Assembly (NCBI GenBank): GCA_964017185.1
Contig: OZ024874.1
Span: forward strand, 35,998,721-36,062,720
Direction: 5' to 3'
Source: Rugalucina vietnamica
Lineage: Eukaryota > Mollusca > Bivalvia > Lucinida > Lucinidae
Length of the DNA: 64,000 nt
The translations under genes and the position numbers were made by a program. Under the pieces are notes generated by a model. That model was not told where the DNA came from and searched no databases. It worked only from the letters and a program-made list of their open reading frames with translations. Below, piece by piece: positions 7,015 to 40,640 of this stretch (its first letter is position 1; every line of letters starts with the position of its first letter).

Positions 7015-7305
7015 TTATTACCGATCGTTCCAAGTCCATACTTCTGTTAGGGTTCTAAATTATTATTTGATGTTTTGGTGTTATCTATTTTTGTGCTGTT
7101 TGCACCTTATGTACCTTTTCGTATTTTAGTTACATGTAAGTTAGGGTAACTGAGTGGCCGCCTGTTGGGAAATAGCTGCTTACTCGGCTAACAATATTTT
7201 CCCTTTGTATAAGTACCTTATTGTCAATTTCGTTTTTCCCACCTTGGGTTTTAGAGTGGGAATTTATGAATTCCTGATCATTGCCTACTTTTACCTTTCT
7301 AAATA
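7015..7305 (+). repeat. ~290 bp interspersed repeat, copy in front of LINE-A
   Basis: Starts near CCGATCGTTCCAAGTC and ends TTGCCTACTTTTACCTTTCT just before the ATG of the PHD frame. Related copies lie at 8824-9113 (+), 15479-15715 (+), 17185-17270 (+, partial) and 56577-56935 (-). It contains no coding frame. Here it sits where a LINE 5-prime leader would be, so it may be the native leader of LINE-A or a promoter-bearing element captured by it. Confidence 0.7.
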
Positions 7306-7306
7306 G

Positions 7307-7666
7307 ATGAACCCGGGCCCTAGATTTCAGTGTCGCTTATGTAAAAAATACTGTAAGGCAGCTGATCAGGTAGTAGAATGTGCAGATTGTGAAAAGCGTT
7401 TCCACGCATCATATGCCAACCTTGGAAAGGAAGAATTGCAAGAATTAGAATCTGGTATTGAATCTTGGTATTGTTCAAACTGCAAGGCTGAGTGTAGCCT
7501 TTGCAGTGGTTTAGTTCTCGATTGCCACAAAGCAGTTCAGTGTGACAAATGTGATATGTGGGTGCACAATGACTGCTCTTTTCTATCCGATTCACAATAT
7601 GAAACAATGCAAAACACAAACTGTACTTGGATTTGTCCAAAATGTGATTTCTTCAATTTTTTCTGA
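7307..7666 (+). pseudogene. LINE-A PHD-finger module, copy 1
   Basis: 119 codons from ATG. Two PHD-like zinc fingers are visible. Finger 1 uses C9, C12, C25, C28, H33, C56 and C59, but has Y36 where the family expects cysteine after H-x2. Finger 2 is complete: C63, C66, C79, C82, H87, C90, C110, C113, with W85 and W108 at the usual aromatic positions. In related LINEs such fingers belong to the N-terminal part of the polyprotein and are thought to bind chromatin or nucleic acid. The stop after the final phenylalanines is probably a frameshift, because the downstream endonuclease reads on in another frame. Confidence 0.8.
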
Positions 7667-7771
7667 CTCTTTTTTGACGAACAGTTAAACTTGGAAAGTT
7701 TTCCCACCTTGGGTTTTAGAGTGGGAATTTATGAATTCCTGATCATTGCCTACTTTTACCTTTCTAAATAG

Positions 7772-8131
7772 ATGAACCCGGGCCCTAGATTTCAGTGTCG
7801 CTTATGTAAAAAATACTGTAAGGCAGCTGATCAGGTAGTAGAATGTGCAGATTGTGAAAAGCGTTTCCACGCATCATATGCCAACCTTGGAAAGGAAGAA
7901 TTGCAAGAATTAGAATCTGGTATTGAATCTTGGTATTGTTCAAACTGCAAGGCTGAGTGTAGCCTTTGCAGTGGTTTAGTTCTCGATTGCCACAAAGCAG
8001 TTCAGTGTGACAAATGTGATATGTGGGTGCACAATGACTGCTCTTTTCTATCCGATTCACAATATGAAACAATGCAAAACACAAACTGTACTTGGATTTG
8101 TCCAAAATGTGATTTCTTCAATTTTTTCTGA
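7772..8131 (+). pseudogene. LINE-A PHD-finger module, copy 2
   Basis: Protein identical to the copy at 7307, including the tyrosine at position 36. This copy is directly followed by the endonuclease part (after a frameshift near the terminal stop), so it is the one in original linear context. Downstream, a different frame reads RFNPLG and then into the endonuclease start. Confidence 0.8.
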
Positions 8132-8177
8132 CTCTTTTTTGACGAACAGTTTGAAGGTTTAATCCACTTGGAAACAG

Positions 8178-12029: not shown

Positions 12030-12150
12030 AACGGATACGGCTTTCGAGATACTGTGCCGCGATACGTGAACGTAACTCTTGTCGGTATCGCATATGCAAA
12101 AAGAGCATGTTTTGTAGTAAATATATGATAAATCCTTTTATTATATGGCA

Positions 12151-12874
12151 AGTGATGAAATATAGAGAAATATGTATTAAATATAACCAATATTTGAAAA
12201 AGTTATATTTTCACATGTGAAAATATAAAAAATTTATATTTTCACATGTGAAAATATAAGATTTGGAAATACGCAAATTACGATTCCACCGTTTTATTTC
12301 TAATTTATACATAACTAAATTTTATAATCTATGCTATTGTTGACGCAATGAACGTTCACACACAATAGCGACGTAATGACGTGACGTAATGACGTCATTT
12401 AAGATTTTGACGTCATATGCTTTAGCGCGCAACGTTACAATGACTACATGCAATATAATAAAAAGAAAATTCAAGTTTTTGTCGTGAATATGAGTTTTAT
12501 TTCATCTCGTGAAGTGATGAAATATAGAGAAATATGTATTAAATATAACCAATATTTGAAAAAGTTATATTTTCACATGTGAAAATATAAAAAATTTATA
12601 TTTTCACATGTGAAAATATAAGATTTGGAAATACGCAAATTACGATTCCACCGTTTTATTTCTAATTTATACATAACTAAATTTTATAATCTATGCTATT
12701 GTTGACGCAATGAACGTTCACACACAATAGCGACGTAATGACGTGACGTAATGACGTCATTTAAGATTTTGACGTCATATGCTTTAGCGCGCAACGTTAC
12801 AATGACTACATGCAATATAATAAAAAGAAAATTCAAGTTTTTGTCGTGAATATGAGTTTTATTTCATCTCGTGA
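12151..12874 (+). repeat. 362 bp tandem duplication
   Basis: Copies 12151-12512 and 12513-12874 start AGTGATGAAATATAGAGAAA and appear identical along their length, including TATTTTCACATGTGAAAATA hairpins and a GTAATGACGTGACGTAATGA stretch. A diverged third copy lies at 29140-29500. The unit has no coding capacity. Confidence 0.9.
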
Positions 12875-12979
12875 AGTGAAAAATTATATATTTCATGAGT
12901 GCCGAAGGCACTCATAAAACATAAAAAATTTCACTTCATTCAATGAAATAAAACTCATATTCAAGACAAAAACTTGAAT
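12831..12979. repeat. Palindromic end of the 362 bp element
   Basis: ATTCAAGTTTTTGTCGTGAA at 12831 is mirrored by the sequence ending AAAACTTGAAT at 12979, with arms of ~70 bp round the centre GAGTGCCGAAGGCACTC. The copy at 29450-29605 has the same design. The CCGAAGGC centre recalls that of the 14401-14693 MITE, so the two may belong to one superfamily. Confidence 0.75.
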
Positions 12980-15715: not shown

Positions 15716-17172
15716 GTGGGGTGATCGGAAAGTACGTATAAAAATGTTGTCATTTCTTTAGCTTTTGTTATTTCGAAATGAAATTTCATCACATAATATT
15801 TACATTTTTATTGCAGTTACCCTAGATGAAAGTAATTTTCTTGATGTTCTTCATTTCCCAATGAAAAACATTAAGATCTAGAGGACACGCCTATGGGCGG
15901 GGATACGTCAAAACAAGTGACGTTGTTTGTTTACTTTTGTTGGCGTGACGTCGGCCGCGTACCGCCATGACGTTAAGCGCGAAATTTGACGTTTTGGCTG
16001 TTCCAAAATTACGTTAAGTCGGATTTAATGTCAAATAACATGAAAATGTGCGATGATATGTGCAATCAAAAATCTGATGCTCGATTGATATTGTAAAATG
16101 TAAATATAAGTATTGAAATTCAGATTTTAGCTGTCACTGGATGATGAAAAACATTAGTTGTTTTAATGTCTCCGAGAAGCCCGAATCACAGACATTAAAA
16201 CAGTTTTTCATCATCCAGTGAAAGCTAAAATCTGAATTTCAATGCTTAAATGCAGCAACATATATGCACTTATTCCATTGCAAACATAAGCCGTGTACTG
16301 TAGTTAATAAGTATTAAATAAAATGTGGACATACGCAATAAAAACAATACTTTGAACTAAGATGCATTTTGAAATTAATAAGAATAAAGCTACGACGTTA
16401 CGTTGCGCCGCATAACGTTGAGCGGTGTTTCCATAACGACAGCTGCAACGCACGTGTGCGTATTATGAAATCCTCGCAAGCAGTGTACGTTGTAGTTAAT
16501 AAGTATTAATGTGGACATACGCAATCAAAACGGCTGTTACAATAAGTTCCGAGGATTTTTATCGAATGGATTTGTCTCTAGAGTCTTGCAACTAAATACC
16601 GACTCTATCAAATAGACAGAACTGTTAAGATTTTCGACAATGCTGCTTTTTTGCCAAGTGATTTTTTAAAAGTATATATTTTACTGCAAGCTCGAAACTT
16701 TTTTATTCTTGACATAGTCTCTACTAATTATAATTTATGTCAGTCCTTTTATCATTTCGTTAAACAACGGCCAGAAAACAAAGTATTGAATTTAAGTTTA
16801 CAAAATGAAATCGACGTTCTGGTATATTTTATGCTAACCTGTTGAATTAAATTTCACCTTATTAGTAGATAAAGCATCAGAATGCCGCATGTTTTCGAAA
16901 AATGGCCAATTAATGTTAGAAATTATTTTTCATTTAAAAAATGTCGACCAACTTTCCCTAACCCTAAAACACACTAACAAAGTCAACCCAGGAGTACAGG
17001 TGCACCGGGTCACGTGAAGTGACGTCATTACGCTGTCTCGTGCATGAACGCTGTTGTTTTAAAATGACAACAGCACTTAATTACAGAAGGATTAATGTTT
17101 ATTCGTACTAAATTTCATATCAATCTATTGAGGTAAACGTATTTTACAGCATTTTATACGTATTTTCCTATC
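15715..17172. mobile_element. Mariner-like non-autonomous element, copy 2
   Basis: The left end CGTGGGGTGATCGGAAAGTA is the same as at 13346 and is preceded by TA. The right end near 17155-17172 (TTTATACGTATTTTCC) is decayed. The interior matches copy 1 except for an added block at about 15830-16250 and for 16275-16465, which lies in inverted orientation relative to copy 1 (14060-14260). Confidence 0.65.
16113..16245. repeat. Inverted repeat with ~55 bp arms
   Basis: TTGAAATTCAGATTTTAGCT (16113) is mirrored by AGCTAAAATCTGAATTTCAA (ending near 16243). The arms include GGATGATGAAAAAC and TTTTAATGTCT, and the loop contains GAAGCCCGAATC. Part of the extra block present only in mariner-like copy 2. 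Confidence 0.75.
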
Positions 17173-17184
17173 TAATTTACTTTT

Positions 17185-17270
17185 TCCTACCTCGGTTTTT
17201 GGAGTGGTAATTTCTTTCTGTTTGTGCCTTTTCCTGATCATTGCCTACTTGTACCTTTTTCTTCTTTCTA
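17185..17270 (+). repeat. ~290 bp repeat family, 3-prime end only
   Basis: CCTACCTCGGTTTTTGGAGT followed by GATCATTGCCTACTTGTACC matches the right third of the family. It may be the right third lost from the 15479 copy, split off by insertion of the mariner-like element at 15715; the order and orientation fit. Confidence 0.65.
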
Positions 17271-18535
17271 AAACGGATTTACAGGTTTTAGCAACGGTTT
17301 TTACAACATCTACACGTATAAATTAAACACAATTTTCTCATCATCGTTTAAAAGGTTAAATTGAGGATAGAAATGTGTATTTTCATTGGACATTTCAAGC
17401 TGCATGTCTTCATATAGCAGACAATGTAATAAAAATGGTTTTCAGATTCTACAGAATCACGACAGTTAAAACATGTTCTTTGGTTCACCGCCAATGTTCA
17501 CGACGACCCGTTTCTAGTCGCAGGAGCCCAGCACGAAACTTTGCCAAAGCACTACGCCAAGACAATAGCTTTTTCAGTATTACTTATGACTCTGATTCAA
17601 AGTTTTGTTTGAAAGTTCTTTGAAAGTTCTTTATACGTTTAAAATTTATTATGGCCTTCTTGCGCGATTAAGTTCATTCTTCCATGACTGTATATAATGC
17701 ACGTATGATATGCATTTTCACAGGTTAATATAACGTTTTTCAAATCATGTTGAGTACCATCCAAGAAATGTGTACAATTTATATTATCCAAGTGTTTCTT
17801 TAGTCTGTAATTCCACTTTTAGGTCCATTCATATACGGGGCAAATGATAAAAAATGGTACTTCAAAAATAAAACCTTTAAAACGTATTGGTTCGGGAAAT
17901 GTATTTGAAGCCTACACTAAGACAGTACTTTTAAAAATCTTTAATAAAGAGGTAATTTTCTATGGAATTCGTGAACGTGTTCCCGGAGGCACAAATGCAG
18001 AGAAAACCACTGTCTTGGAAATAACTCGAGAATCAGATCAGTCCCTACATTCCCACTTACAGGATTTGAAGAGGTCGATCTGGGATCTTCGCTGCTAAAG
18101 TTTATTTGAATAAAATCCGTTAAAGGGAGAAAAGTGAAAAAGTCTAACTTGGAAGCGAAAGAAAAGTGCATTCCATTTACGCGTGGAATCATAAAGTCAC
18201 GTGGATTCCCCACACTGAGCATTATACTTTCGTGATTCATGGAAACTGAAAATCAAATTTTATGTCATAAGGTCGATTTCTATCCGGAAAGGCTCATTTA
18301 TATAGCGAAGAAAAAAAGAGAAAAAAGAAATTCTGAACGGGTGTGTAAGATCAGAATTATTTAGCGAAACTACAGGGTAACGTTTTACCGGTGTTGGGAC
18401 CGCTCCACCATCCGCAACGTTGGACAGGGTGATAGTACTATTGAGTACATGTATTGATGTATTACTACGCGGTGTAAAGTTGTGGTTATTTTATTGAAGA
18501 CGAATTTCATTGTTTTATAAATTACTAAGCTTTAA
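17271..18535. other. Non-coding interval
   Basis: No recognisable gene. Frames of 82-99 codons occur on both strands at 17375-17623 and 17844-18240, but their products have no recognisable motifs. LINE-B may extend leftwards into this region as untranslated leader; no boundary is visible. Confidence 0.35.
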
Positions 18536-18570
18536 TTGCAACTATATTTTCGTGTCAGAAAGACAGTTGT

Positions 18571-19025
18571 GATGAGTGTATCTTCAGGAAAACGGAAAAC
18601 CGAGGAGGATTTGGTTGATTCTGTGAAAAAAGTAAAACAAAGTGGAAACGTTGAAACAAAGGACTCAAACCAAAACAATATGGCGTCGACCTCAAGGGGA
18701 CTATGTTTGTGCCTCCAGGTATAAAATTACTCTTCTCCAACCTCTCGCATGACATTCAATCTTCCCACGATAAACTCTCAAAGCGATTAGATTCATTAGG
18801 GGAAGATTTGCAAGGCAAAATCAAGGAACTAGTTTCTGTGGCTATAAAGGCGGATAAGCTTCGGACTGAGTACAGTGTTGAGATAAACTCACTGAAATCG
18901 AAGGTAGCCAACCTATAAAAGTCGTATGCCGAAGTAGTGAGAGATAACGGTATGTCAAATGCGGCGGCCTTTGAAGAACGCAAGAAGCGTATCGTAAGGG
19001 GAATTCCATGTGGTTGAACTGAGAC
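18571..19025 (+). pseudogene. LINE-B ORF1, N-terminal part
   Basis: First frame: MSVSSGKRKTEEDLVDSVKK, basic and lysine-rich. After a frameshift near 18705 the sense continues with FVPPGIKLLFSNLSHDIQSS and a heptad-like acidic/basic helix (KLSKRLDSLGEDLQGKIKEL, YSVEINSLKSKVANL), suggesting a coiled coil of about 60 residues. After a stop at 18916 it reads SYAEVVRDNGMSNAAAFEER, similar to the linker before the RNA-binding domain of LINE ORF1 proteins. It breaks off at the 19026 insertion. Confidence 0.65.
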
Positions 19026-19397
19026 TGCCTAACGGCTATATTCTCTTCCGCCACTCAAACTCAAACTCAAACTCAACTCGCGAGAGTATGGTTGGAGTAT
19101 GAGTCGAGTGGGATTAACTTGAGTGTGAGTGGAGTATAGATTTGGTATGCACAACAGTCACTCGACCCTCACTCACAGGAGTGTCAAGTTGTCCTATTAA
19201 AACAAAGAAATTTGACATCTTATGGTCATTTGATCTTATTTATTCTATGTAACATCAAATAAGCAGTAAAGACTTTGACTAGACACCGCATCTTGTGGTG
19301 AGTTGTTATAATTTTTCGATGTGCACGCTTGGTATCGTATTTACTCATACTCATTCCTTTTTATTGTTTTTGTTTGCTCGTTTAGTTTTTCTGTGTT

Positions 19398-19430
<33 letters not shown>

Positions 19431-19480
19431 TTGTTTGTTTATTTGTCTTTCTGTTCTGTGTTGCCCTCTCCTTCTTTCTT

Positions 19481-19538
<58 letters not shown>

Positions 19539-20022
19539 GGGATGGGTGTGCGTGGGGGTGAGTCTGTGACAGCGATATCTAGCGTAAAGACACAAACATG
19601 TCTGCATTTTGCTGTAAAATGTTGACCACCCACTAAAATATGGATCATCACTTTTCATGTTCTAAATAGTCGTAAATGACATGCCTTGAGAAAATTGAAA
19701 TTTGTTCTGGAATTCGCGACCCCTCTCAATGTACGATTTGTCCCAACCATGAAGCTTCGTCCATGCGATGTATGTAAACTGCTATCATTGGCTGTCTTCG
19801 AAGAAAATATGGAAAAAATGGGTCCAAACATTTTCGAGTAGCGCTCGAGTGAGGTGTCACCTACACTCAGCGTTTACTCGAAATTCGAGTTGAGTACGAG
19901 TGTGAGTGGGACATGTGCATACCAAATCGAACAGTTATGTGCTCACACGAGTGACTGATCAGATTATCTTAATGAGTTTGAGTGGAGTATGCCTTGAGTG
20001 TAGGTTGAGAATACAGCCGTAA
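19026..20022. mobile_element. ~1 kb inverted-repeat element inside LINE-B ORF1
   Basis: The left end around TAACGGCTATATTCTC is mirrored by GAGAATACAGCCGTAA at the right end. A second inverted pair inside reads GATTTGGTATGCAC (about 19139) and GTGCATACCAAATC (about 19914). The subterminal parts are rich in ACTCAAACTC, CTCGAGT and GAGTGTGAGTG motifs. It separates two halves of the LINE-B ORF1. No coding frame apart from microsatellite readthrough. The target duplication is not clear (GAGAC/GAGTC nearby). Confidence 0.65.
19397..19535 (+). repeat. (CT)n microsatellites
   Basis: Two CT tracts, about 19397-19428 and 19485-19535, separated by a T-rich spacer. All serine/leucine or arginine/glutamate frames across this stretch are artefacts. 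Confidence 0.95.
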
Positions 20023-20037
20023 GAGTCACAGGACAAT

Positions 20038-20373
20038 GTGATGGCCCTTGTTCGAGATGGGTGTAAGCTGTCTGATGTCAAGGTCACTCGGACAGAAAGG
20101 AAATTCTCAAGGGGCAAAAAACCGGGACCTATTATTGCTACAATTGAGACTTTTGAGCAGAAGCAAAAACTGATGAAAACCAAAAATGCCCTGAAAATGT
20201 TGACAAGTATAAAAAGTATATACATTGAAAATGATTATGCCCCCGAGACACGCAGCACAGACTCAAACTTGCGTACGATTTTGAAAGAAATCGGCAAAAA
20301 TAAACAGTATCATGTTGCGGGAGGGAAGATATTTTCAGTCAGACAGGATAACGGTAATAACGGTCGCGATTAG
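20038..20373 (+). pseudogene. LINE-B ORF1, C-terminal part
   Basis: 111 codons: VRDGCKLSDVKVTRTERKFS, KKPGPIIATIETFEQKQKLM, LKMLTSIKSIYIENDYAPET, then SNLRTILKEIG and GGKIFSVRQDN. The basic strand-helix pattern and final short segment resemble the RNA-binding and C-terminal domains of LINE ORF1 proteins. This is inference from the residue pattern. Confidence 0.55.
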
Positions 20374-20413
20374 GTTTGTGTGCGCCTGGGCTGTCGTTGG
20401 TCGTTGAAAGACA

Positions 20414-20879
20414 ATGAAAATAAACTTTTTCAAGAGCAAACTGTTATACAATTGTTATGTATTTTGTGTCGTCGAGACTTTTTTGAAAAATAAGGAGGTC
20501 CTACAGGTGGAGGGATACACGTTTATTTGTCATAATAGGGGACATCTTCATAAAAAAGCGAAACGGGGTTCTGGGGGGCGTGGGCGTGTTTGTGCGTAAC
20601 ACCTTATTGAACATATTCAACGTTACAGTTCTCGATGATTCTGTTGAAGACATTTTATGGATTAAACTCTTGCATCTAGAAAATGTTCAGTCAGAAAACA
20701 TAGTTTTATGTGTCGCATATCTTCCCCCCTCTGATTCTGTACGCAACAATGACCCTGACGCTTTCTATACTGTTCACTGCTTGAACAGGTATATACCTTT
20801 GAAAACGAGGGAAAACTGTTCGTTTGCGGTGACTTTAACTCTCGAGTTGGAGATGATAGTGACTATATCGAGGGCGTAG
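20414..20879 (+). pseudogene. LINE-B endonuclease, N-terminal part
   Basis: Reads SKLLYNCYVFCVVETFLKNK (the glutamate of VETF is the expected catalytic residue), VEGYTFICHNR and then, after a frameshift near 20575, GVGVFVRNTLLN, EDILWIKL and VLCVAYLPPSDS. The segment between the N-x-R motif and VVET is shortened. Another frameshift follows before GDFNSRVGDDSDYIEGVDD, which can be read near 20830-20883. Confidence 0.75.
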
Positions 20880-20958
20880 ATGATGTGAAAAGTCGAAATA
20901 TTAATGGATTACACCTCTAATGGGAATGGTGACCTACTGATATATTTTATCGTGGACT

Positions 20959-21441
20959 GTGGACTCGTGTATGCTTAACGGTCGAATTGGCATTAACGAC
21001 TTTACTCATGTGTCGCACCGGGGACGGTCAGTGGTCGATTACGTGTTTATGCCGTATGAACAGTTATTGGGTGTGGAAAATTTTGAGGTGTGTCTAATGA
21101 CTGAACTTGCTGAAAAGCTTAACATGCAGGGTAACAGTAAAATTCTTGATCATTCCCTTCTCTTGTGGATTACCCCTTTGTTGTCTCATGAAGGTAACGG
21201 TGACGATGTACCTTCACAAACACAGAATTCATCGAACCATATAATAAAACCTATTTATAAGACTTCAAATATTCCTAGCTGCTTTTTGAATAATGAAGCA
21301 GATATGCCACATATTAACGATGCTATAAACAGACTTGAGTACAATTTGCAGCAACAAAATGACGTTAATAACGCTTATGATCAACGTTTGCAAAATTGGT
21401 CACTGATGAAATGGAGAAAACATTGCCAATACGAAATATAA
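20959..21441 (+). pseudogene. LINE-B endonuclease C-terminus and linker
   Basis: 160 codons. RIGINDFTHVSHRGRSVVDY, then VFMPYEQL and ILDHSLLLW (DH of the last endonuclease motif). The remainder is an unstructured linker rich in N and Q, then WRKHCQYEI. Confidence 0.75.
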
Positions 21442-21531
21442 ACGAACGCTTGTCTTGCCCAAAAACGAAATATAAACCTTATTGGTGTGATGAGTTACAG
21501 ACTGCTTGGGATCTAGTCCGCGCTAAGGAAC

Positions 21532-21834
21532 GTGCGTAGTTACGGTCTACAGGAAATCAGTCTGAGAAAGGTAGGCTCAGAAACGCTTATATTGGTGAAA
21601 GAAAAAACTTTTGATGAATTGCATCGGCGATCGAAACGGAACTATCAAAGTACCGAACAAGATTGTTTAAAAGAATTATTTAGCGATCATGAGACACGAA
21701 ACTTCTGGAAATATATCGGTAAAATTGGACGGCACAATGACAGAAAACCAAGTATTCCCATGGAGGTAGTGGACGACTGGTCGTGTGTCTACGAATACGG
21801 ACGATGTTCTCTCACGTTGGAAAACGGACTATGA
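21532..21834 (+). pseudogene. LINE-B pre-RT linker
   Basis: Contains KEKTFDELHRRSKRNYQSTE and DHETRNFWKYIGKIGRHNDR, the basic helix and FWKYI motif normally found upstream of the RT in this kind of element. Ends in a frameshift. Confidence 0.6.
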
Positions 21835-21949
21835 ATTTCTCGAGAAGCCAAATACGAACAGTTTAACGACGCTCACCTAAGAGACATTCAGTCTAGTTTA
21901 CGTGACAACCAATACACAGGAGTGCATAACGTTGATGTTTCTGTCTTAA

Positions 21950-22438
21950 ATGCGGAAATATCAAAAAGTGAAATTGAGAAGAGTAATTCTTAGAGCAAAA
22001 TTACGTAAAGCCGCCGGCTTAGATAATATACCCGCGGAAGTCTTACGGAACCCCGTTTGTGTTGATTTATTGTATAAAATTATTAGACACTGTTTCAACA
22101 TGGGTACAGTCCCGCGCGATTGGAATAATGGACTGATCAAGCCTATACCCAAGTCAGACGGGAAAGATCCACGGGATCGTCTAAGATATACGGGTATAAC
22201 GTTAATCTCAATTCCGTGTAAGATATATGCCGATATTTTGAACATTAGACTGTCAAAATGGATTGAGGATAACGATTACCTAGTTGAGGAGCAAAATGGG
22301 TTTAGACGTAATAAGTCATGTAAGGAACATATTTACTCTTTGGATTCTGTTGTTGAATTCTTTTCTCTACTTTTGCCTGTTTTGTGGACGCTTAAAAGGC
22401 GTTTGACACTGTTAATCGAGACTGTTTGTGGTACAAAT
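21950..22438 (+). pseudogene. LINE-B reverse transcriptase, fingers and broken motif A
   Basis: LRKAAGLDNIPAEVLRN, FNMGTVPRDWNNGLIKPIPK, YTGITLISIPCKIYADILNI and VEEQNGFRRNKSCKEHI are well preserved. Motif A lies in a shifted frame near 22375-22430 and reads TFACFVDA, stop, KAFDTVNRDCLWYKL: a lysine codon has become TAA next to the catalytic aspartate. The sequence then jumps to YDNVKCAVKVND, so a block of the palm is deleted at about 22438. Confidence 0.85.
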
Positions 22439-22835
22439 TATGACAATGTCAAATGCGCGGTTAAGGTCAACGATGTCATTACTCCCTTTCTTGACGTCAT
22501 TCTTGGGGTAAAACAAGGCTGTAAGCTTTCGTCAACGTTATTCGCAATTTATATTCATGATCTTGCTGAGGAAATCAAGTCTCTAAATTGTGGTTTAGAA
22601 ATACATTGTCAAAGTACTTGCTCCAACAGAAGAATCATTACAGCTAATGTTAAATAAATTAAATGAATGGTGTGCTAAATGGCGACTATTGATTAATCAA
22701 GAAAAAACACAGATCGTGCATTTCAGACCTGTATCTATACAGAAAACGCAATATAACTTTGTATGTGGTGAATTAGCTTTAGAAAAGAAACGTCAACATA
22801 AAAGTACCTTGGCTTGTGGTTTCATGAGCATTTAG
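22439..22835 (+). pseudogene. LINE-B reverse transcriptase, palm and thumb; YADD box deleted
   Basis: VILGVKQGCKLSSTLFAIYI is motif B. The frame then runs NCGLEIHCQS, and directly in another frame LAPTEESLQLMLNKLNEWCA, the sequence normally just after the YADD box. The catalytic box itself is missing: a short deletion around 22612 also shifts the frame. WRLLINQEKTQIVHFRP follows. Confidence 0.85.
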
Positions 22836-23039
22836 ATATGAAATTTGCGGTAAACGAGTTAACGAAGTCAGCAAGTCGTGCTCTTTCTGCTTTGTACACA
22901 TTTTTTTTAAATGTTGGAGGTATGGACTATGACGTTTTTTGTAAGCTTTATGAATCGTTGGTCGAGCCAGTGTTGTTTTATGGTGCAAATTTGTGGGGAT
23001 TATCTGAACAGAAAAAAGAAAATACGGTGCAGAATAAAG
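22814..23039 (+). pseudogene. LINE-B C-terminal region, left part
   Basis: FHEHLDMKFAVNELTKSASR, CKLYESLVEPVLFYGANLWG and ENTVQNK. The frame is cut by the foldback element at 23040. Codons continue in phase at 26707. Confidence 0.85.
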
Positions 23040-23089
23040 TATGGAACGCCAAAGCTATCTGATGGTAAGGAATAAAAACATTTGATGCA

Positions 23090-23460
23090 TCATCGTCATT
23101 ATATCCTGCTCACATTTGATTATATGTTGTATAGTGTGCATTATATGATGAGAAAAGTCCATTATATGTTGGACCAGGTTCTTTATATTATGAAAAGTTT
23201 CATTATATGATGAGTAAACATCTTTATATTATGGTAGACTTACATTATATGATGGGTAAACATCTTTATATTATGGTAGACTTACATTATATGCTGATAC
23301 AACCTCATTATATGATGTGACAACTACATTATATTATGGGCTATTGTCTTTATATGCATCAAGTTCATTATATGGTTCGATAACTTCATTATATGCGCAA
23401 ACTTCATTATATGAGCAAACTTCATTATATGATGTGACAACTACGTTATATGATGTGGAC
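23090..23460 (+). repeat. CATTATATGATG-type short repeats, left arm
   Basis: Many degenerate units of ~12-25 bp containing CATTATATGATG or CTTTATATTATG. The same block is inverted at 26283-26650 in the right arm. The frames translated across it are artefacts. Confidence 0.85.
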
Positions 23461-23542
23461 GATTTTGCGAGAAGAAGAATTACATTGACACCGTTTAGAG
23501 AGTTATTGTATACATGCCGGGACTACCGGACATACTGCTGAT

Positions 23543-23543
<1 letters not shown>

Positions 23544-23636
<93 letters not shown>
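23544..23636 (+). repeat. (TATC)n microsatellite, left arm
   Basis: About 23 TATC units; the right arm carries the inverted TAGA/GATA tract at 26136-26202, about 16 units. Flanked on one side by (ATC)n. Confidence 0.95.
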
Positions 23637-23638
<2 letters not shown>

Positions 23639-23921
23639 CACAATCATCATCATCATCATCGTCATTATGATATATCATCATCAATATCGATCATCATCAT
23701 CATCATAATCGAAAGTAGTATAGAGGGTGGATTTTTAATCTACTTTCATGGTCGCCTGGTGTTGTTCGGTTGTTCAAGATGGCGGCCTCAATGGGACCGA
23801 TATTGCGCAATGTTTCGTAAGATCCACGAATCATTCTATTTCCGTTTCCATGCCACTTTCGATCCGGTTTCTTATTGGCATTTTAAGAACGGCTAGCGCC
23901 ATCCTGGCCACCACTCGCAGA

Positions 23922-24870
23922 CTTCCAGGATACCGGTGCCAATTAGATTAAGCTTAGATTTCGACTCCCAATACCCTCCCGAGTCGAAAGCGTCGGTCTG
24001 CGACACTACCAGACCACTCGCAGACTTCCAGGATACCGGTGCCAATTAGTTAAAGCTTAGATTTCGACCCCAAGACCCTCCCGAGTCGAAAGCGTCGGTC
24101 TGCGACACTATCAGACCACTCGCAAACTTCCAGGATACCGGTGCCAATTAGTTTAAGCATATATTTCGACTCCCAAGACCCTCCCGAGTCGAAAGCGTCT
24201 GTCTTCGACACTACCAGACCACTCGCAGACTTCCAGGATACCGGTGCCAATTAGTTTCAGCTTAGATTTCGACCCCCCAAGACCCTCCCGAGTCGAAAGC
24301 GTCGGTCTGCGACACTATCAGACCACTCGCAGACTTCCATGATACCGGTGCCAATTAGTTTAAGCATATATTTCGACTCCCGTAACCCTCCCGAGTCGAA
24401 AGCGTCGGTCTGCGACACTATCAGACCACTCGCAGACTTCCAGGATACCGGTGTCAATAAGTTAAAGCTTAGATTTAGAATATCAAGACCATCCCGAATC
24501 GAAAGCGTCGGTCTGCGACAATATCAGACCACTTGCAGACTTCCAGGAGTCCGATGCCAATAGAGTAAAAGCCTGATTTGACCTCTAACCATATAACACG
24601 TGTTGAAATGGTCTGCGAGACGTTCTGACTACTCGCAGACTTCCAGGATTCCGGTGCCAATAGGGTAAAAGCATGATTTGACATTCTGAGATCCTATAAG
24701 ACCATTTGAGACGGTCTGCGAAACGTTTTGACTACTCGCAGACTTCCAGGATTCCGGTGTCAATAGAGTTAAAATCTGATTTGACCTTGTTAGACCCTAT
24801 AAGACCATTTGAATTGTCTGCGACAAGTTTTGACTACTCGCAGACTTCCAGGAATCCGGTGACACAACTA
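23922..24870 (+). repeat. ~102 bp tandem monomers, left arm (10 copies)
   Basis: CTTCCAGGATACCGGTGCCA starts near 23922, 24025, 24127, 24228, 24334, 24438, 24540, 24640, 24743 and 24844. Each unit also carries CCCGAGTCGAAAGCGTCGGT and TCTGCGACA. Units nearer the loop are more diverged. Period 100-106 bp. Confidence 0.9.
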
Positions 24871-25089
24871 TTGCTACCAAACCTTGACTATCGTTCGTCC
24901 AAATACACCTATATCCAATGTATGTAGCACACAACTGCGCATAAACAATATAATATACGGGGGTGGGGGTGGGGTTTTCGCTGAGTATGACAGTCACCGA
25001 AAAGTGTCAAATAGCCATTTTGTAGGGTGCGAGGAGTCAGAATGAGGAACTGGGGAGGCATGAAGATATAATAGCTCCATAAACTCCAA

Positions 25090-25840
25090 TCCGAGCTAAA
25101 TCCTGGAAGTCTAAGAGTGGTCTGATATTGTCGCAGACCGACGCTTTCGATTCAATATGGTCTTGAGAGTCAAAATCTAAGCTTTAACTTATTGGCACCG
25201 GAATCCCGGTAGTCTGTGAGTGGTCTGGTAGTGTCGCAGACCGACTATATCGACTCGGGAGGGTTTTGGGAGTCAAAATATATGCTTAAACTCATTGACA
25301 CCGGTATCCTGGAAGTCTGCGAGTGGTCTGATAGTGTCGCAGACCGATGCTTTCGACTTGGGAGGGTCTTTGGGTCGACATCGAAGCTTAAACTAATTGG
25401 CACCGGTATCCTGGAAGTCTGCGAGTGGTCTGGTAGTGTCGCAGACCGACGCCTTCGACTCGGGATGGTATTGGGGGTCGAAATCTAAGCTTAAGCTTAT
25501 TGGCACCGGTATCCTGGAAGTCTGCGAGTGGTCTGGTAATGTCGCAGACCGACGCTTTCGACTCGGGAGGGTCTTGGTAGTCAAAATATATGCTTAAACT
25601 AATTGGCACCGGTATCCTGGAAGTCTGCGAGTGGACTGATAGTGTCGCAGACCGACGCTTTCGACTCGGGAGGGTCTTGGGGTCGAAATCTAAGCTTAAA
25701 CTAATTGGCACCGGTATCCTGGAAGTCTGCGAGTGGTCTGGTAGTGTCGCAGACCGACGCTTTCGACTCGGGTGGGTATTGGGAGTCGAAATCTAAGCTT
25801 AATCTAATTGGCACCGGTATCCTGGAAGTCTGCTAGTGGT
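25090..25840 (-). repeat. ~102 bp tandem monomers, right arm (8 copies)
   Basis: Inverted copies of the left-arm monomer (CCTGGAAGTCTGCGAGTGGT) at about 25103, 25204, 25308, 25411, 25515, 25617, 25717 and 25820. Two fewer copies than the left arm, so copy number has changed independently in the arms. Confidence 0.9.
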
Positions 25841-26133
25841 GGCCAGGATGACGCTAGCCGTTCTTAAAATGCCAATAAGAAACCGAATCAGATATCGAAA
25901 GTGGCACTGAAACGGAAATAGAATGATTCGTGGATCTTACGAAATATTGCGTAATATGGGTCCCATGGAGGCCGCCATCTTGATCAACCAAACAACACCA
26001 GGCGACCAGAGAAGTAGATTAAAAATCCACCCTCTATACTACTTTCGATCATGATGATGATGATGATCGATATTGATGATGATATAACATCATGACGATG
26101 ATGATGATGATGGTGATGATCGATCATGATCAT

Positions 26134-26135
<2 letters not shown>

Positions 26136-26202
<67 letters not shown>
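26136..26202 (-). repeat. (TAGA)n microsatellite, right arm
   Basis: Mirror of the TATC tract at 23544-23636, with fewer units. Confidence 0.95.
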
Positions 26203-26203
<1 letters not shown>

Positions 26204-26706
26204 ATCAGCAGTATGTCCGGTAGTCCCGGTATGTATAAAATAACTCTCTAAACGGTGTCAATGTAATTCTTCTTCTCGCAAAATCGTCCACATCATATAA
26301 CGTAGTTGTCACATCATATAATGAAGTTTGCGCATATAATGAAGTTTGCGCATATAATGAAGTTATCGAACCATATAATGAACTTGATGCATATAAAGAC
26401 AATAGCCCATAATATAATATAGTTGTCACATCATATAATGAGGTTGTATCAGCATATAATGTAAGTCTACCATAATATAAAGATGTTTACACATCATATA
26501 ATGTAAGTCTACCATAATATAAAGATGTTTACTCATCATATAATGAAACTTTTCATAATATAAAGAACCTGATCCAACATATAATGGGCTTTTCTCATCA
26601 TATAATGCACACTATACAACATATAATCAAATGTGAGCAGGATATAATGACGATGATGCATCAAATGTTTTTATTCCTTACCATCAGACAGCTTTGGCGT
26701 TCCATA

Positions 26707-26826
26707 ATAAAGCGTGCAGATACTTTTTGGGACTTGGCAAAAACGCTTCGAATCTTGCATCACAGGGCGACATGGGCTGGTCTAGCTGTGCACATAAACA
26801 GAAGATAGAGGCATGCAGATTATATC
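26707..26826 (+). pseudogene. LINE-B C-terminal region, right part
   Basis: Reads ACRYFLGLGKNASNLASQGD then MGWSSCAHKQKIEACRLYL in the phase that continues VQNK from 23033. It ends abruptly near 26826, where the unclassified family seen at 38160 begins, so the 3-prime end of LINE-B is missing. Confidence 0.85.
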
Positions 26827-26834
26827 TTTAAGAT

Positions 26835-27030
26835 CGTACGTACACCTGATAAAAGTTTCCTTTTAAAAGGAAAGTTTGTCCAGTACTTAAAATAGAAAAC
26901 AATAAAGCGAAATCGCTAAAAGGCATGAACATATTCATATATATGGTATTTCGTACAAGAAAATTAGTTTTTGTTTGCTTTTGCGAAATCAAACGAATAT
27001 TGTTATTTTTAGGAATGGGTATAAAAAAAA
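26835..27030 (+). repeat. R38 family fragment
   Basis: AAGTTTCCTTTTAAAAGGAA, then GTCCAGTACTTAAAATAGAA and ATTCATATATATGGTATTTC, matches the left end of the repeat at 38160 and the complement of 50080-50215. Confidence 0.7.
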
Positions 27031-30936: not shown

Positions 30937-33900
30937 GGAACGGTGTGTTAGGGTATGTCGCTGTAGGTCTCTGCTGTAGGTCTCTACTGGGAACGTTGTG
31001 GTAGGGAATGGGTCGATATATCTACTGGGGACGGTGTGGTAGATTAAGGTGCTGTAGATCTCTACTGGGGACGGTGTGGTAGGTTATGGCGCTGTAGATC
31101 TCTACTGGGGGCGGTGTGGTAGGGTATGTCGCTGAAGATCTCCACTGGGGACGTTGTGGTAGGGAATGGGTCGATATATCTCTACTGGGGACGGTGTGGT
31201 AGATAAAGGTGCTGTAGATCTCTATTGGGGACTGTGTGGTAGGAAATGGCGCTGTAGATCTTTACTGGGGACGGTGTGGTAGGGTATGTCGCTGTAGATC
31301 TCTACTGTGGACGTTGTGGTAGGAAATGGGGCGAAAGATCTATACTGGGGACGGAATGGTAGGGTATAGTGTTGTAGGTCCCTACTGGGGACGATGCTGA
31401 AGAGAATGACACTGTATACTGGGGACGAAGTGGTAGGGTATGGCGCTGTATATCTCTTCTGGAGACGATGTGGTAGACTACCGCACTGTAGATCTCTGCT
31501 AGGTACGGTCCAGTAGAGTATGGTTTTGTAGATTTCTACTGGGGACGGTGTGGTAGGGTATGTCGCTGTAGATCTCTACTGGGGACCAATTAATAGAGTA
31601 GTTCGCTTGAAATGTCTACTTTGGACAGTGTGATAGGGTATGTAGCTGTAGATCTCTACTGGTGACGTTGTGGTAGGTAATGGGACGATAGATCTCTACT
31701 GGGGACGTTGTGGTATGGAATGGGACGATAGATCTTTACTGGGGACGTTGTGGTGGGGAATGGGTAGATAAATCTCTACTGGGGACGGTGTGGTAGATAA
31801 AGGTGCTGTAGCGCTCTACTGGGGACGGTGTGGTAGGTTATGGCGCTGTATAACTTTACTGGGGACGGTGTTGTAGAGTATGTCGCTGTAGATCTCTACT
31901 GGGGACGTTGTGGTAGGAAATGGGGCGATAGATCTCTACTGGGGACGGAATGGTAGGGTATGGTGTTGTAGATCCCTACTGGGGACAATGCTGAAGAGAA
32001 TGACACTGTATATCTCAACTGGGGAAGGAGTGGAAGGGTATGACGCTGTGTATCTCTACTGGAGACGGTGTGGTAGACTACCGCACTGTAGATCTCTACT
32101 GGGTACGGTCCAATAGAGTATATTGTTGTATATCTCTACTGGGGACGGTGTGGTAGGGTATGTCGCTGTAGATCTCTACTGGGGACGTTGTGGTAGGGAA
32201 TGTGACGACAGATCTTTTCTGGGGACGGTGTGGTAGAATATGGTGCTGTAGATCTCTACTGGGGACGGTGTGGTAGGGTATGGCGCTGAATATCTTTACT
32301 AGGGAGCGTATGGTAGGGAATGGCGCTGCAGATCTTAACTGGGGACGGTGTGGTATGGTATGTCGCTGTAGATCTCTATTGGTGACGCTGTGGTAGGAAA
32401 TGGGCCAATAGATGTCTACTGGGGACGGAATGGTAGGGTATGGTGTTGTTGATCCCTACTGGGGACGATGCTGAAGAGAATGACACTGTATATCTCTACT
32501 GGGGACGAAGTGGTAGGGTATGGCGCTGTATATCTATTCTGAAGACGGTGTGGTAGACTACCGCACTGTAGATCTCTACTGGGTACGCTCAAGTAGATTA
32601 TGGTTTTGTAGATCTCTACTGGGGACGGTGTGGTAGGGCATGTCGCTGTAGATCTCTACTGGGGACCTATTAATAGAGTAGTTCGCTTTAAATGTCTACT
32701 TTGGACAGTGTGATAGGGCATGTAGCTGTAGATCTCTACTGGGGACGTTGTGGTAGGTAATGGGACGATAGATCTCTACTGGGGACGGTGTGGTAGGGTA
32801 TGTCGCTGTAGATCTCTACTGGGGACGTTGTGGTAGGGAATGGGTCGATATATCTCTACTGGGGACGGTGTGGTAGATTAATGTGCTGTAGATCTCTACT
32901 GGGGACGGTGTGGTAGGGAATGGCGCTGCAGATCTTAACTGGGGACGGTGTGGTAGGGAATTGGTCGATATATCTACTGGGGAAGGTGTGGTAGATTACG
33001 GTGCCGTAGATGTCTACCGATAGATCTCTACTGGGGACGGAATGGTAGGGTATGGTGATGTGATCCCTACTGTAGACGATGCTAAAGAGAATGACACGGT
33101 ATATCTCAATTTGGGAAGGAGTGGTAGGGTATGACGCTGTATATCTCTACTGGAGACGGTGTGGTAGACTACCGCACTGTAGATCTTTACTGGGTACGGT
33201 GCAGTAGAGTATAGTGTTGTCGATCTCTACTGGGGACGGTGTGGTAGGGTATGTCGCAGTTGATCTCTACTGGGGACGTATTGGTAGAGTAGTTCGCTTT
33301 AGATGTCTACTTGTGACTGTGTGATAGGGTATGTTGCTGTAGATCTCTACTGGGGATGTTGTGGTAGGGAACGGGGCGATAAATCTCTACTGGGGACTGT
33401 GTGGTAGGGTATGTCGCTGTAGATATCTACTGGGGACGTTGTGTTAGGGAATGTGACGATAGATCTTTACTGGGGACGGTGTGGTAGAATATGGTGCTGT
33501 TGATCTCTACGGGGCACGGTGTGGTAGGATATGGCGCTGTAGAACTTTACTAGGGACGGTATGGTAGGGTATGTCGCTGTAGAACTCTACAGGGGACGTT
33601 GTGGTAGGGGATGAGTCGATATATCTCTACTGGGGAAGGTGTGGTAGATTACGGTGCTGTAGATGTCTACTGGGGACGGTGTGGTAGGTTATGGCGATGT
33701 AGAACTTTACTGGGGACGGTGTGGTAGGGTATGTCGCTGAAGATCTCTACTGGGGACGTTGTGGTAGGGAATGGGTCGATATATCTCTACTGGGGACGGT
33801 GTGGTAGATTAATGTGCTGTAGATCTCTACTGGGGACGGTGTGGTAGGGGATGGCGCTGCAGATCTTAACTGGGGACGGTGTGGTAGGTTGTGTCGCTGT

Positions 33901-36275
33901 AGATCTCTACTGGGGACGTTGTCGTAGGAAATAGGGCGATAGATCTATACTGGGGACGGAATGGTAGGGTATGGTGTTGTTGATCCCTACTGGGGACGAT
34001 GCTGAAGAGAATGACACTGTATATCTTCACTGGGGACGAAGTGGTAGGGTATTGCGCTGTATATCTCTTCTGGAGACGACGTGGTAGATTACCGCACTGT
34101 AGATCTCTACTGGGTACGGTCGACTCAAGTAAAGTATGGTTTTGTAGATCTCTACTGGGGACGGTATGGTAGGGTATGTCGCTGTAGATCTCTACTGGGG
34201 ACCTACTAATAGAGTAGTTCGCTTTAAATGTCTACTTGGGACTGTGTGATAGGGTATGTAGCTGCAGATCTCTACTGGGGACTTTGTGGTAGAAAATGGG
34301 ACGAAAGATCTCTACTGGGGACGTTGTGGCAGGAAATGGGTCGATAAATCTGTACTGGGGACGGTGTGGTAGATTATAGCGCTGTAGATCTTTACTGGGG
34401 AGGGTTTGGTAGGGTATGTCGCTGTAGATCTTTACTGGGGACATTGTGGTAGGAAAAGGGGCGATATATCTCTACTGGGGACGAAATGGTAGGGTATGGT
34501 GATGTAGATCCCTACTGGGGACAATGCTGAAGAGAATGACACTGTATATCGCAACTTGGGAAGGAGTGGTAGGGTATGACGCTGCATATATTTCTACTGG
34601 AGACGGTGTGGTAGACTACCGCACTGTTGATCTCTACTGGGTACGGTCCAGTAGAGTATAGTGTTGTCGATCTCTACTGGGGACGGTGTTGTAGGGTATG
34701 TCGCAGTAGATTTCTACTGAGGACGTATTGGTGGAGTAGTTCGCTTAAGATGTCTACTTGTGACTGTGTGATAGGGTATGTAGCTGTAGATCTCTACTGG
34801 GGATGTTGTGGTAGGGAACGGGGCGATAGATCTCTACTGGGGACGGTGTGGTAGGGTATGTCACTGTAGATCTCTACTGGGGACGTTGTGTTAGGGAATG
34901 TGACGAAAGATCTCTACTGGGGACGTTGTGGTAGAATATGGTGCTGTATATCTCTACTGGGGACGGTGCGGTAGGGTATGGAGCTGTAGATCTTTACTAG
35001 GGCCTGTATGGTAGGGTATGTCGCTGTAGATATCTACTGGGGACGTTGTGGTAGGGAATGGGGCGAAAGATCTCTACTGGGGACGGAATGGTAGGGTATG
35101 ATCCCTACTGGGGACGATGCTGAAGAGAATGACACTGTATATCTCTTCTGGGGACGGAGTGGTAGGGTATGGCGCTGTATAATTCTACTTGAGACGATGT
35201 AGACTACCGCACTGTAGATCATTAGAGTAGTTCGCTTTAGATGTCTACTGGGGACGGTGTGGTAGGGAATAGTTCGATAGATCTCTACTGGGGACGGTGT
35301 GGTAGATTATGGTGCTGTAGATCTCAACTGGGGACGGCGTGGTAGGCTATGTCGCTGAAGATCTCTACTGGGGAGGTTTTAGTAGGGAATGGGGCGATAG
35401 ATATCTACTCAGGACGGAATGATAGGGTATGCTGTTGAAGATCCCTACTGGGGACGATGCTGAAGAGAAAGACACTGTATATCTCTAATGGGGACGGAAT
35501 GTTAGAGAATGACACTGTATATCTCAACTGGAGACGGTGTGGTGGACTACCGCACTGTATATCTCTACTGGGGGCGGTCCAGTAGAGTATGGTACTGTAG
35601 ATCTCTTCTGGGGACGGTGTGGTAGACTACCGCACTGTAAATCTCTATTGGGGACGGTCTGGTAGAAAATGGTGCTATTGGGGACGGGGTTGTAGGGTAT
35701 GGCACTGTATATCTCTACTGGAGACGGCGTGGTAGAATACCGCACTGTAGATCTCTACTGGGGACGGTCCAGTAGAATTAAGGTGCAGTAGATCTCTACT
35801 GGGAACGATGTGGTATGGTATGTCGCTGTAGATCTCTTCTGGGGACGGTCCAGTAGAATTAAGGTGCTGTAGATCTCTACTGGGAACGATGTGGTATGGT
35901 ATGTCGCTGTAGATTTCTTCTGGGGACCTATTGGTAGAGTATGTCGCTTTAGATATCTACTGGGGACGGTGTGGTAGAGTATATTGTTGTAGATCCCTAC
36001 TGGGGACAATACTGAAGGGAATGGCGGTATATTTCTGTACCGGGGACGTTGTGGTAGATAATGGCGCTGAATATGTCTACTGGGACATTCTGGTAGGGTA
36101 TGACGTTGTAGGTTCTTCCTGGGGACGCTGTATATCTCTACTGGGGACGTTGTGGTATACTATTGCGCTGAAGAACCTCCTGGAAACAATGTGATAGAGT
36201 ATGGCGCTGTAGAACCCTACTGGGAATATTGCGGTAGATTGTGGCACTGTAGATCTCTACTTGGGACGTTGTAAC
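30937..36275 (+). repeat. 40 bp minisatellite, ~130 copies
   Basis: Consensus unit GATCTCTACTGGGGACGGTG followed by TGGTAGGGTATGTCGCTGTA. Units differ by substitutions and small indels. Variant types (ACGTTGTGGT, AATGGGTCGATA, GCTGAAGAGAATGACACTGT, TAGACTACCGCACTGT) recur in a similar order. The GCTGAAGAGAATGACACTG type appears near 31396, 31990, 32470, 33081, 34001, 34526, 35120 and 35459. This implies higher-order units of about 12-15 monomers. Frames across it are artefacts, since 40 is not a multiple of three. Confidence 0.95.
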
Positions 36276-38159: not shown

Positions 38160-40640
38160 AAGCAGAATCCAGTTGAAATAAAAGTTCCCTTTTAAAAGGA
38201 ATGGTTTGTCCAGTATTGAAAATAGAAAACCAAAAAGCGAAATTGCGAAAAGGCCTGTACATATATTCATATGGTATTTCGTCCAAGAGAGCTTGTCATT
38301 TTTTTTTCATTCAACAATTTCAGCATCTATTTGGTATCTTGAACTTTGTTCGCTGCATGACCTAAATGACCAGTTATCCTACAGCAGCATGACGCAACCT
38401 GTGTGAAACATTGCAAAAATTTCTAGAAGAATGAATCACGAATTTCGAAATGGGTTAGACTGTTCAGTGATATAATTTAAGCGAATCCCTTGATCGATTT
38501 GTCAAATCATGTGCTCCTCCAGTGAATGTTTCAATTGTCGCATTTATGGTGGTAGGCAGTTAGCAGCATTTTCTTTAATCCAGAATGTCAAGGATTTAGC
38601 CGTATCTGATCATAGCCTACTTGTACCTTTTCATTGGCTCTATTGCCAAATTTTAAAACATGCTTTGTAATATATTTTAAAACGCGCCACGAGACGCGTG
38701 TCCGCATTTTTTTCCAATCAGGTCCGACACAAACTAGCCTGTAGTTACAGAAGAAGGCAAAAAGCTTATTATGGATTATTGTTCTAGCCGTGACTAGCGA
38801 AAAAAACTGCGCCGATCAGCTGTGCTGTGTAAAATGCTTGTTTTGTCACGATGCTGCTGAAAACCTTTTCATAGATTTCTGATGCAATGTTTTCGTAGAA
38901 AGAGTTCTAGAATGGTCTGGACAAGGCTATTTCCATCCTCGGTGACCCAGGCGCGACCGATTACATTATAGTTCGACCAGCATTGTGAATGTAGGGTTCG
39001 AAAGTCAGTGCATCTGGGTGAACGAGGATTGCTATTTATAGCCATCATGAGTCGCGTCGTGTAAGCCGCACCGTGAGTAACCCTGCATTTAACATAATGC
39101 AAAAACAAAGTTTGTGTGTTAACTTCACCGTTGACCATCGCATGCAATGTTTTCGTAGAAAGAGTTCTAGAATGGTCTGGACAAGGCTATTTCCATCCTC
39201 GGTGACCCAGGCGCGACCGATTACATTATAGTTCGACCAGCATTGTGAATGTAGGGTACGAAAGTCAGTGCATCTGGGTGAACGAGGATGGCTATTTATA
39301 GCCATCATGAGTCGCGTCGTGTAAGCCGCACCGTGAGTAACCCTGCATTTAACATAATGCAAAAACAAAGTTTGTGTGTTAACTTCACCGTTGACCATCG
39401 CATTTGTTTTTCGCTTCACAGAAAGTATATCAATCTCCTTTTTAATTCCGGAATAGATCTGTTTCACCGCACAGTCTAACGCTGTTCAAAACTTGTGACA
39501 TGACACTGCGTCAAAATACTGCTCCGTAATTAATCCCCGTATCTTGTTCTTTTCCAAGTGCGTTATCATTTTAAACTGACGCAAACTATACACAGGGTGG
39601 TGTTTGTATAAGGTCATATTCATTTCGTTTTGGTGCTGCTTAATATGCATTTACCATAATTTACAGATTTCATTCTTATAATTTAAAAAAAAATAGCTAA
39701 TGCATTTCTAGGGTTACATAAACTAATGCATTGAAGCCGCATTATGAGAAAACTCGTTGTTTACAGATGCGAAAACAAATGCACAGATCAGCTGTGTAAT
39801 AACAAGCGTGTTCGTTTCCATTTCATGAACAGTGCAATTGCACTTTTTCTTAAATCCCAAAAGTCTAGCTTTAAACATTTTGTAGTCGTAGAGGCTGGTT
39901 TGTGTCGTACAGTTCGGAAACCTCAAAAACTTTTTTTTTCTCGTGAGAAGGCTGCTTGAGAGAATCATGGCCCTATGTCGCCGTCCAGTGTATAAATGTG
40001 TACCAGCAACGATATTAAGTCGTTGCATCAGACAGCTTTAATTCGTTGCGTCATGCCAACTTTCATAACGGAGATCGGAAACCCTTTATATCCAATTACA
40101 AAACAGATTTTGAAGATTTCAGTAAAAAGAAAAAGAATTTGAGCCACTGAGGCACAGCAAAAGAAAAAACAACTTTGGCTACATTGGGGCAACAAAACAC
40201 AGATCAGCTTACATTTAAAAGGTTGATCGGAGTAACCTTGATATTGGCAAGGTATAGTTTACTATTAAAAATGTTACTTCTGTCAATATTTTGTTTTGAT
40301 CTTTTTGTTATTCTTACATCATGTCTTTATTGTTTGTCTACTTTCATAACGAAAACGAATTGAGGTTAAGCAGAAGTCAAGGTAAGGTCAAAAGAGGATT
40401 AATATATTAATATATAGATATTGATGAAAACTCGCATGCGCAAACTATCACCGGATTTCCGTAAAAAACCGAATGAGAGTTTGTGTTTCGCAAAACACAA
40501 ACAAAAAGGTGCATGTGACTTTTGGAATCAATGGTTCCTACATTTGACGCGTTACTGTACCGAAACCAGTGATCCGTGTTCTCGTGTTTGCATTCTGACC
40601 GATTGCACAATTACTGCTCTATCAGATTTTTAAATTATTT
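38160..40640 (+). mobile_element. Unclassified large repeat R38, + orientation
   Basis: Left end AAGTTCCCTTTTAAAAGGAA; right part includes CCTCAAAAACTTTTTTTTTC, GAGAGAATCATGGCCCTATG and GCACAGATCAGCTGTG. Large segments correspond to 46790-47760 in reverse complement (e.g. 38466-38520 against 47505-47560; 39810-40010 against 46905-47075) and to 48400-50220 in the same orientation. No coding frame with recognised motifs and no clear terminal repeats. Could be a non-autonomous DNA transposon or a large retroposon. Confidence 0.6.
38882..39401 (+). repeat. 260 bp tandem duplication within R38
   Basis: Units 38882-39141 and 39142-39401 start ATGCAATGTTTTCGTAGAAA. Only two substitutions were noticed (GGTTCG/GGTACG, GATTGC/GATGGC). 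The corresponding R38 copies at 46.8 and 48.4 kb do not show it. Confidence 0.9.

Follow-up and report, generated by a model that had tools for sequence, protein, structure and literature searches.

At issue at this locus is what kind of mobile element has interrupted a LINE in the lucinid bivalve Rugalucina vietnamica, what moves it, and why its long, repeat-built arms have been kept. The stretch analyzed here (the window; 64,000 nucleotides, C6:35998721-36062720 in a 47-contig genome of 1.09 Gb) contains the element at positions 23040-26706 (3667 bp), flanked on either side by a 6-bp duplication, ATAAAG (23034-23039 and 26707-26712, plus strand). When the element is removed and one copy of the duplication is kept, the flanks give an open LINE frame (...VQNKACRYFLGLGK...), so the empty site is readable in phase, as the first-pass annotation had proposed; the upstream ORF of this host LINE (21950-22657, plus strand) has a weak RVT_1 match (E 3.5e-6, below the curated cut-off).

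Read inward from either end, the modules come in the same order: a terminus (TATGGAACGCCAAAGCT), an AT-rich array of boxes, a TCTA/TAGA microsatellite, an ATC-rich stretch, a unique module of about 200 bp, ten or eight monomers of about 103 bp, and a 237-bp center. On the left (plus strand), the outer arm (23040-23525) comprises the 17-bp terminus (23040-23056), whose exact 17-mer was counted genome-wide, and 18 TTATAT boxes, mostly 21 bp apart, the first at 23099; inward of it lie a TCTA tetranucleotide array of about 23 units (23543-23637), a unique module of arm type 1 (197 bp, 23713-23909, including CAAGATGGCGGCC), and ten monomers (23910-24862). On the right (minus strand), the outer arm (26221-26706) again has 18 TTATAT boxes and the terminus, followed inward by a TAGA/GATA array of about 17 units (26134-26203), a unique module of arm type 2 (204 bp, 25841-26044, delimited by where the monomer array ends and with a 7-bp insertion relative to type 1), and eight inverted monomers (25100-25840). 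The center (24863-25099) has no tandem repeats, is present in other copies too, and is overlapped by no ORF of at least 120 aa; all ORFs of that length in the element run through the repeats and the unique module. Long inverted arms with tandem repeats around a center of 237 bp give the element the structure of a foldback, and the outer arms (23040-23612 versus 26134-26706) are 99% complementary over 573 nt. The inverted termini, the flanking ATAAAG and the mirror order of modules are as first annotated; the count of ten versus eight monomers also stands, with the monomer length changing from about 102 bp to a commonest period of 103 bp.

Long, repetitive arms whose outer parts are 99% alike might also be expected of a false inverted duplication made during assembly. 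We give this explanation practically no weight and reject it: the exact 17-bp terminus occurs 486 times in the genome (242 forward and 244 reverse; 0 for the reversed-pattern control), target site duplications (TSDs) are found at different sites, the two arms differ consistently module by module, and the window's insertion is assembled twice, the second time at L023, about 1.5 Mb away with collinear flanks that are 98-99% identical. The duplicated block on C6 corresponds to window positions 16193-27006, with 19033-20019 lacking a counterpart in L023, and is either a segmental duplication or an unpurged haplotype. When the flanks of the element were compared with the fetched sequences (the window and the loci), matches were confined to the window, L001 (the window itself) and L023, besides short right-flank matches within the window; no independent empty LINE site was seen in this set.

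The first-pass annotation had suggested looking for other copies with the same termini and for a 6-bp duplication at their insertion sites, and both are present. Besides the 486 exact termini, a query with the 101-bp left end gave 700 first-look candidates, the best 40 of which were scored, all 40 matching at no less than 99%. These 40 places represent 35 loci besides the window, and among the 20 loci analyzed, 14 are two-ended and six one-ended (L009, L013, L015, L018, L020, and L027). Because L023 is the window's own insertion in the collinear second copy, there are 14 independent two-ended insertions including the window: eight have a TSD matching at 6/6 positions, three match at 5/6, and three are without a clear TSD (L016, four of six; L019, three; L011, two), compared with none at 6/6 and three at 5/6 among 182 mismatched (shuffled) flank pairs. 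All 15 two-ended elements have TATGG..CCATA at both ends (with a pattern allowing three edits), with single-end deviations in L010 (position 9) and L028 (position 17), a uniformity that is partly by construction, because the ends were located by pattern and the copies chosen by likeness to the window's left end. Among the first 100 listed 17-mer places, 56 form 28 head-on pairs within 12 kb, with sizes of 381-9550 bp (median 3684 bp), and 44 are unpaired. The element family is large and apparently young in this genome.

Several members depart from the common form. Short members with the same ends are found at C2:13646413-13646793 (381 bp) and C3:19509559-19510016 (458 bp), both known by coordinates alone, and at L016 (1234 bp) and L017 (1259 bp with a nested insert); these may be MITE-like derivatives. 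At L041, the single genome place where the 17-mer precedes different bases, there is what looks like a diverged foldback. L024 has an insertion of about 440 bp inside a foldback arm (its positions 615-1056), which is maybe another element with a 6-bp TSD, the flanking segments overlapping by 6 bp in BLAST coordinates.

The ends and the TSD bear on the superfamily. As described in the accessible part of PMC10045372, TA..TA termini are found in every complete IS3EU family and a 6-bp TSD is usual, and GingerRoot, which groups with IS3EU, has a 6-bp TSD and mostly TA..TA ends; rust-fungal IS3EU elements have 6-bp TSDs and ends of the form TAYGG..CCRTA (PMC12730594, available in part). The TATGG..CCATA ends and 6-bp TSDs found here agree with IS3EU in both respects. 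We conclude that the element is probably a non-autonomous foldback DNA transposon of the IS3EU superfamily, moved in trans. The first-pass annotation had compared the element with Drosophila FB elements; the termini and the 6-bp TSD point away from kinship with these. TSDs are 7-8 bp in Galileo and the P superfamily and about 9 bp in Mutator and Drosophila FB elements, and the 6 bp seen here fits neither. Most described foldbacks belong to the P/Galileo or Mutator/FB lineages and share the architecture of long inverted ends made of tandem repeats (partial texts of PMC4079207, PMC3688188, and PMC3573991), but membership of the present element in one of these lineages is quite improbable, given its 6-bp TSD versus 8-10 bp in Tetris (PMC4079207) and a TATGG end that matches IS3EU (PMC12730594).

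Placement in another group with 6-bp TSDs, such as a hAT6, Dada, Polinton-type or GingerRoot lineage, also seems unlikely. The termini of hAT elements and Polintons are unlike those of the element. An integrase gene in this genome with weak rve, rve_3, and chromodomain matches (L054), which we take to be Polinton-type, would speak for such a group, but the 3.4 kb at L054 has no close match to the element end (two matches at two mismatches, with 0.84 expected). From the portions available, hAT6 yields a 6-bp TSD (PMC12730594), and the TSD and ends of GingerRoot noted above (PMC10045372) are also in its favor; the ends alone cannot separate GingerRoot from IS3EU.

If the element is of IS3EU type, its transposase should be encoded somewhere. 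None was recognized by eye in the ORF lists of the copies read, and the enzyme therefore most likely acts in trans; the earlier statement that no transposase is visible thus holds for the copies read, and the mobilization in trans that it had taken as necessary is put here as the probable course. Ten ORFs were submitted to Pfam, the remaining listed ORFs being judged by eye: eight from loci with these ends (L009, L012, L020, two from L029, L030, L032, and L040) matched no family, and the other two gave a weak integrase plus chromodomain match (L054) and a weak reverse-transcriptase match (the window's LINE ORF). The full-length relative with the same ends and a transposase that the first-pass annotation had hoped for was not found in the copies read. 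The long copies L013, L015, and L024, examined for a nested autonomous element, hold retroelements by the look of their ORFs. The long pairs L029+L035+L036, L030+L037+L038, and L033+L039+L040, read whole, are foldbacks with nested inserts, and the 3.5-kb part of each of L031, L032, and L034 holds foldback pieces. A 384-aa candidate at C11:38.2 Mb was also rejected as a partner; it reads like a Polinton-type integrase and has no matching ends in 3.4 kb.

A different set of ends offers a candidate source. The sequence TATGGAACGCC followed by a base other than A occurs at 570 genome places versus 252 for the reversed control, and since about 252 chance matches are thus expected, unpaired places may be noise. 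T follows in 25 of the first 100 places listed, G in 74, and C in one. Those with T (CCT) include eight pairs that span 4542-7091 bp; four of these measure 4542-4601 bp (C1:42391273-42395856, C2:15669878-15674419, C2:36960907-36965507, and C2:36985557-36990134). Those with G (CCG) include seven pairs, of which one measures 53 bp and the other six 812-1005 bp. Sister families share the 11-bp end, with pairs of 4.5-7.1 kb and about 0.8-1.0 kb; from end coordinates alone, the CCT group is the likeliest autonomous group and the CCG group is read as a MITE group. Genome profile searches gave no match inside the eight CCT pairs among the matches listed for rve_3 (150 of 1874 candidates scored), rve (150 of 2747), IS481 (68 of 2990), and rva_4 (150 of 242). 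Many of the rve_3, rve, and IS481 matches lie in frames of >1000 aa, as in retroelements, and because these searches are crowded by long frames, an IS3EU gene could lie among the unscored candidates. For rva_4, none of the 134 matches from the best 150 of 242 candidates lies 5 kb or less from an end listed on C1, on C2, or in the part of C3 that the listing covers, as judged by eye. In the mechanism that we suggest, a DDE transposase encoded at some other genomic location, for which a sister family sharing the 11-bp end is a possible source, would bind the ends of the element, excise it, and insert it by staggered 6-bp cuts.

The rva_4 (PF24764) search also revealed inverted coding pairs 9-13 kb apart (C3:1767390/1776231, C3:40272126/40283686, C6:8285823/8299092, and C6:59342554/59353815), with equal scores in three of the four pairs; these may be large elements whose two arms each carry a transposase gene.

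The outer arms carry a regular signal of their own. The left outer arm of the window has 18 TTATAT boxes; in 2000 base shufflings the average was 0.86, and no shuffled arm had more than 4. There are 14-18 boxes per arm across 23 arms. Over these arms, 274 of 370 box intervals are 21 bp, 60 are 18 bp, and 21 are 20 bp. The box is invariant across the 18 units of the window's left arm by construction, because the units were picked by the box; a C lies two bases ahead of it in 17 of the 18, and twelve of the fourteen remaining unit positions carry <1 bit each. Steps of 21 bp correspond to two turns of DNA and put the boxes on one helix face, where they could act as auxiliary transposase-binding sites. 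Several transposase-binding sites within the terminal inverted repeat (TIR) have been found in Galileo by footprinting and EMSA (PMC3688188, partial text); Galileo is of a different superfamily and, as far as the available text goes, has three mapped THAP sites versus the 14-18 phased boxes here.

We compared arms after orienting copies by the unique module (L010, L012, and L024 were flipped), dropping L023 as a duplicate and L016, which is without a typed module; the comparison then covered 19 outer arms out of 23 and, for the unique module, 17 arms out of 19. The unique module has nine arm-diagnostic columns, seven of which are a single 7-bp insertion, and its type split was reached in 0/5000 permutations; paired unique modules are no closer than random ones (2762/5000; six copies). 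The outer module has no arm-diagnostic columns and a type split at chance level (3279/5000), and the two outer arms of a copy differ by 1.83% versus 2.55% for random pairing (3/5000 as low; eight copies). Because the unique module keeps two types on the same arm, the arms as wholes are old, and the simplest reading is a conversion between arms that covers the outer half-kilobase but does not extend into the unique module; acting within a copy, such conversion would keep the outer half-kilobase of the two arms alike. The signal, from eight and six arm pairs, leans on two copies: 12/2000 pairings are as low without L010 and 8/2000 without L019, and without both the values are 1.94% versus 2.12% (53/2000). 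Variants private to both arms of a copy occupy 11 columns in L010, six in L019, and one in the window, with events fewer than columns because adjacent indel columns were counted apart.

Shared ancestry or exchange between copies, instead of conversion within them, is a somewhat unlikely source of this likeness. It would sit well with outer arms that are only about 2% different across copies, with the small excess that is left without L010 and L019, and with the seven of ten copies that have no variant private to both arms, but it is at odds with the retention of two unique-module types on the same arm and with the private variants of L010, L019, and the window. Preferring conversion within copies, we tentatively propose, as a reading that is possible at best, that the outer half-kilobase serves an IS3EU transposase as a landing strip of many helically phased sites (up to 18 boxes in 21-bp steps) and is copied from arm to arm by conversion that ends near the tetranucleotide array, so that the functional ends stay matched as the inner arms drift. 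On this view, the foldback form would serve an element that lacks a transposase gene as a way to keep both of its long binding arrays the same. The authors of the Galileo study proposed exchange for long TIRs (PMC3573991, partial text).

Inward of the outer arms, CAAGATGGCGGCC is present in the unique module of both arms of the window (23775, plus strand; 25970, minus strand) and in other copies too, and AAGATGGCGGCC is exact in 17 of 19 arms. CAAGATGGCGGCC resembles a YY1 site, and the unique module may accordingly be a promoter or host-factor site. The ten monomers of the window's left arm comprise a close class (monomers 1-6), a diverged class (7-9), and an odd innermost one, and monomer counts and some spacings differ among copies. 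In the window, L025, and L028, the majority of monomers have a counterpart in another copy that is at least as similar to them as any monomer of their own copy, often at a similar position, so the arrays seem to be inherited with the element and to change length afterwards.

The foldback form combined with IS3EU-type ends appears to be what is new here, both parts being known separately. IS3EU and GingerRoot, including non-autonomous families, share the TA..TA (TAYGG..CCRTA) termini and 6-bp TSD (PMC10045372 and PMC12730594, in part), whereas foldback arms with phased boxes and 103-bp monomers belong to the present element. Tetris/DAIBAM of Drosophila virilis is likewise a non-autonomous modular foldback with tandem repeats of variable array length in its TIRs, but with an 8-10-bp TSD, a proposed Mutator affiliation, repeats of about 220 bp, and three structurally complete copies versus 486 exact ends here (PMC4079207, portion available). 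Galileo also has long, internally repetitive TIRs (PMC3688188 and PMC3573991, in part). PMC8268682, the single paper in the literature searched that mentions both IS3EU and foldbacks, types satellites as IS3EU and cites Tetris in its available part, which has no such element. Among the titles and abstract openings listed from the open literature on foldbacks in bivalves, mussels or molluscs and on IS3EU in clams or bivalves, no such element appears; the first-pass suggestion that the element is undescribed fits this literature, a scope that leaves aside Repbase, Dfam, and closed papers. To our knowledge, the tandem-repeat Helentrons and pearl elements of bivalves have no TSD. These too are mobile elements carrying satellite-like arrays, but they have subterminal inverted repeats and spread by rolling circle (accessible parts of PMC7492417 and PMC11136912).

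Foldback arms have been linked chiefly to relatives of Mutator and P (PMC4079207, in the part available), and a large IS3EU-ended family would mean that the foldback form arose in a further superfamily. Its hundreds of ends, two types of arm, and variable arrays supply enough copies, which Drosophila foldbacks lack, to test what maintains long arms built of repeats: a role as binding arrays, or conversion from one arm to the other. Elsewhere in the window, two-copy tandem duplications with 99-100% matches lie at 7234-8151, 12150-12879, and 38882-39403 (units of 465, 362, and 260 bp) and are either very recent or assembly duplications, and a degenerate 40-bp satellite (TAGATCTCTACTGGGGACGG...) extends over about 5 kb at 30973-36131.
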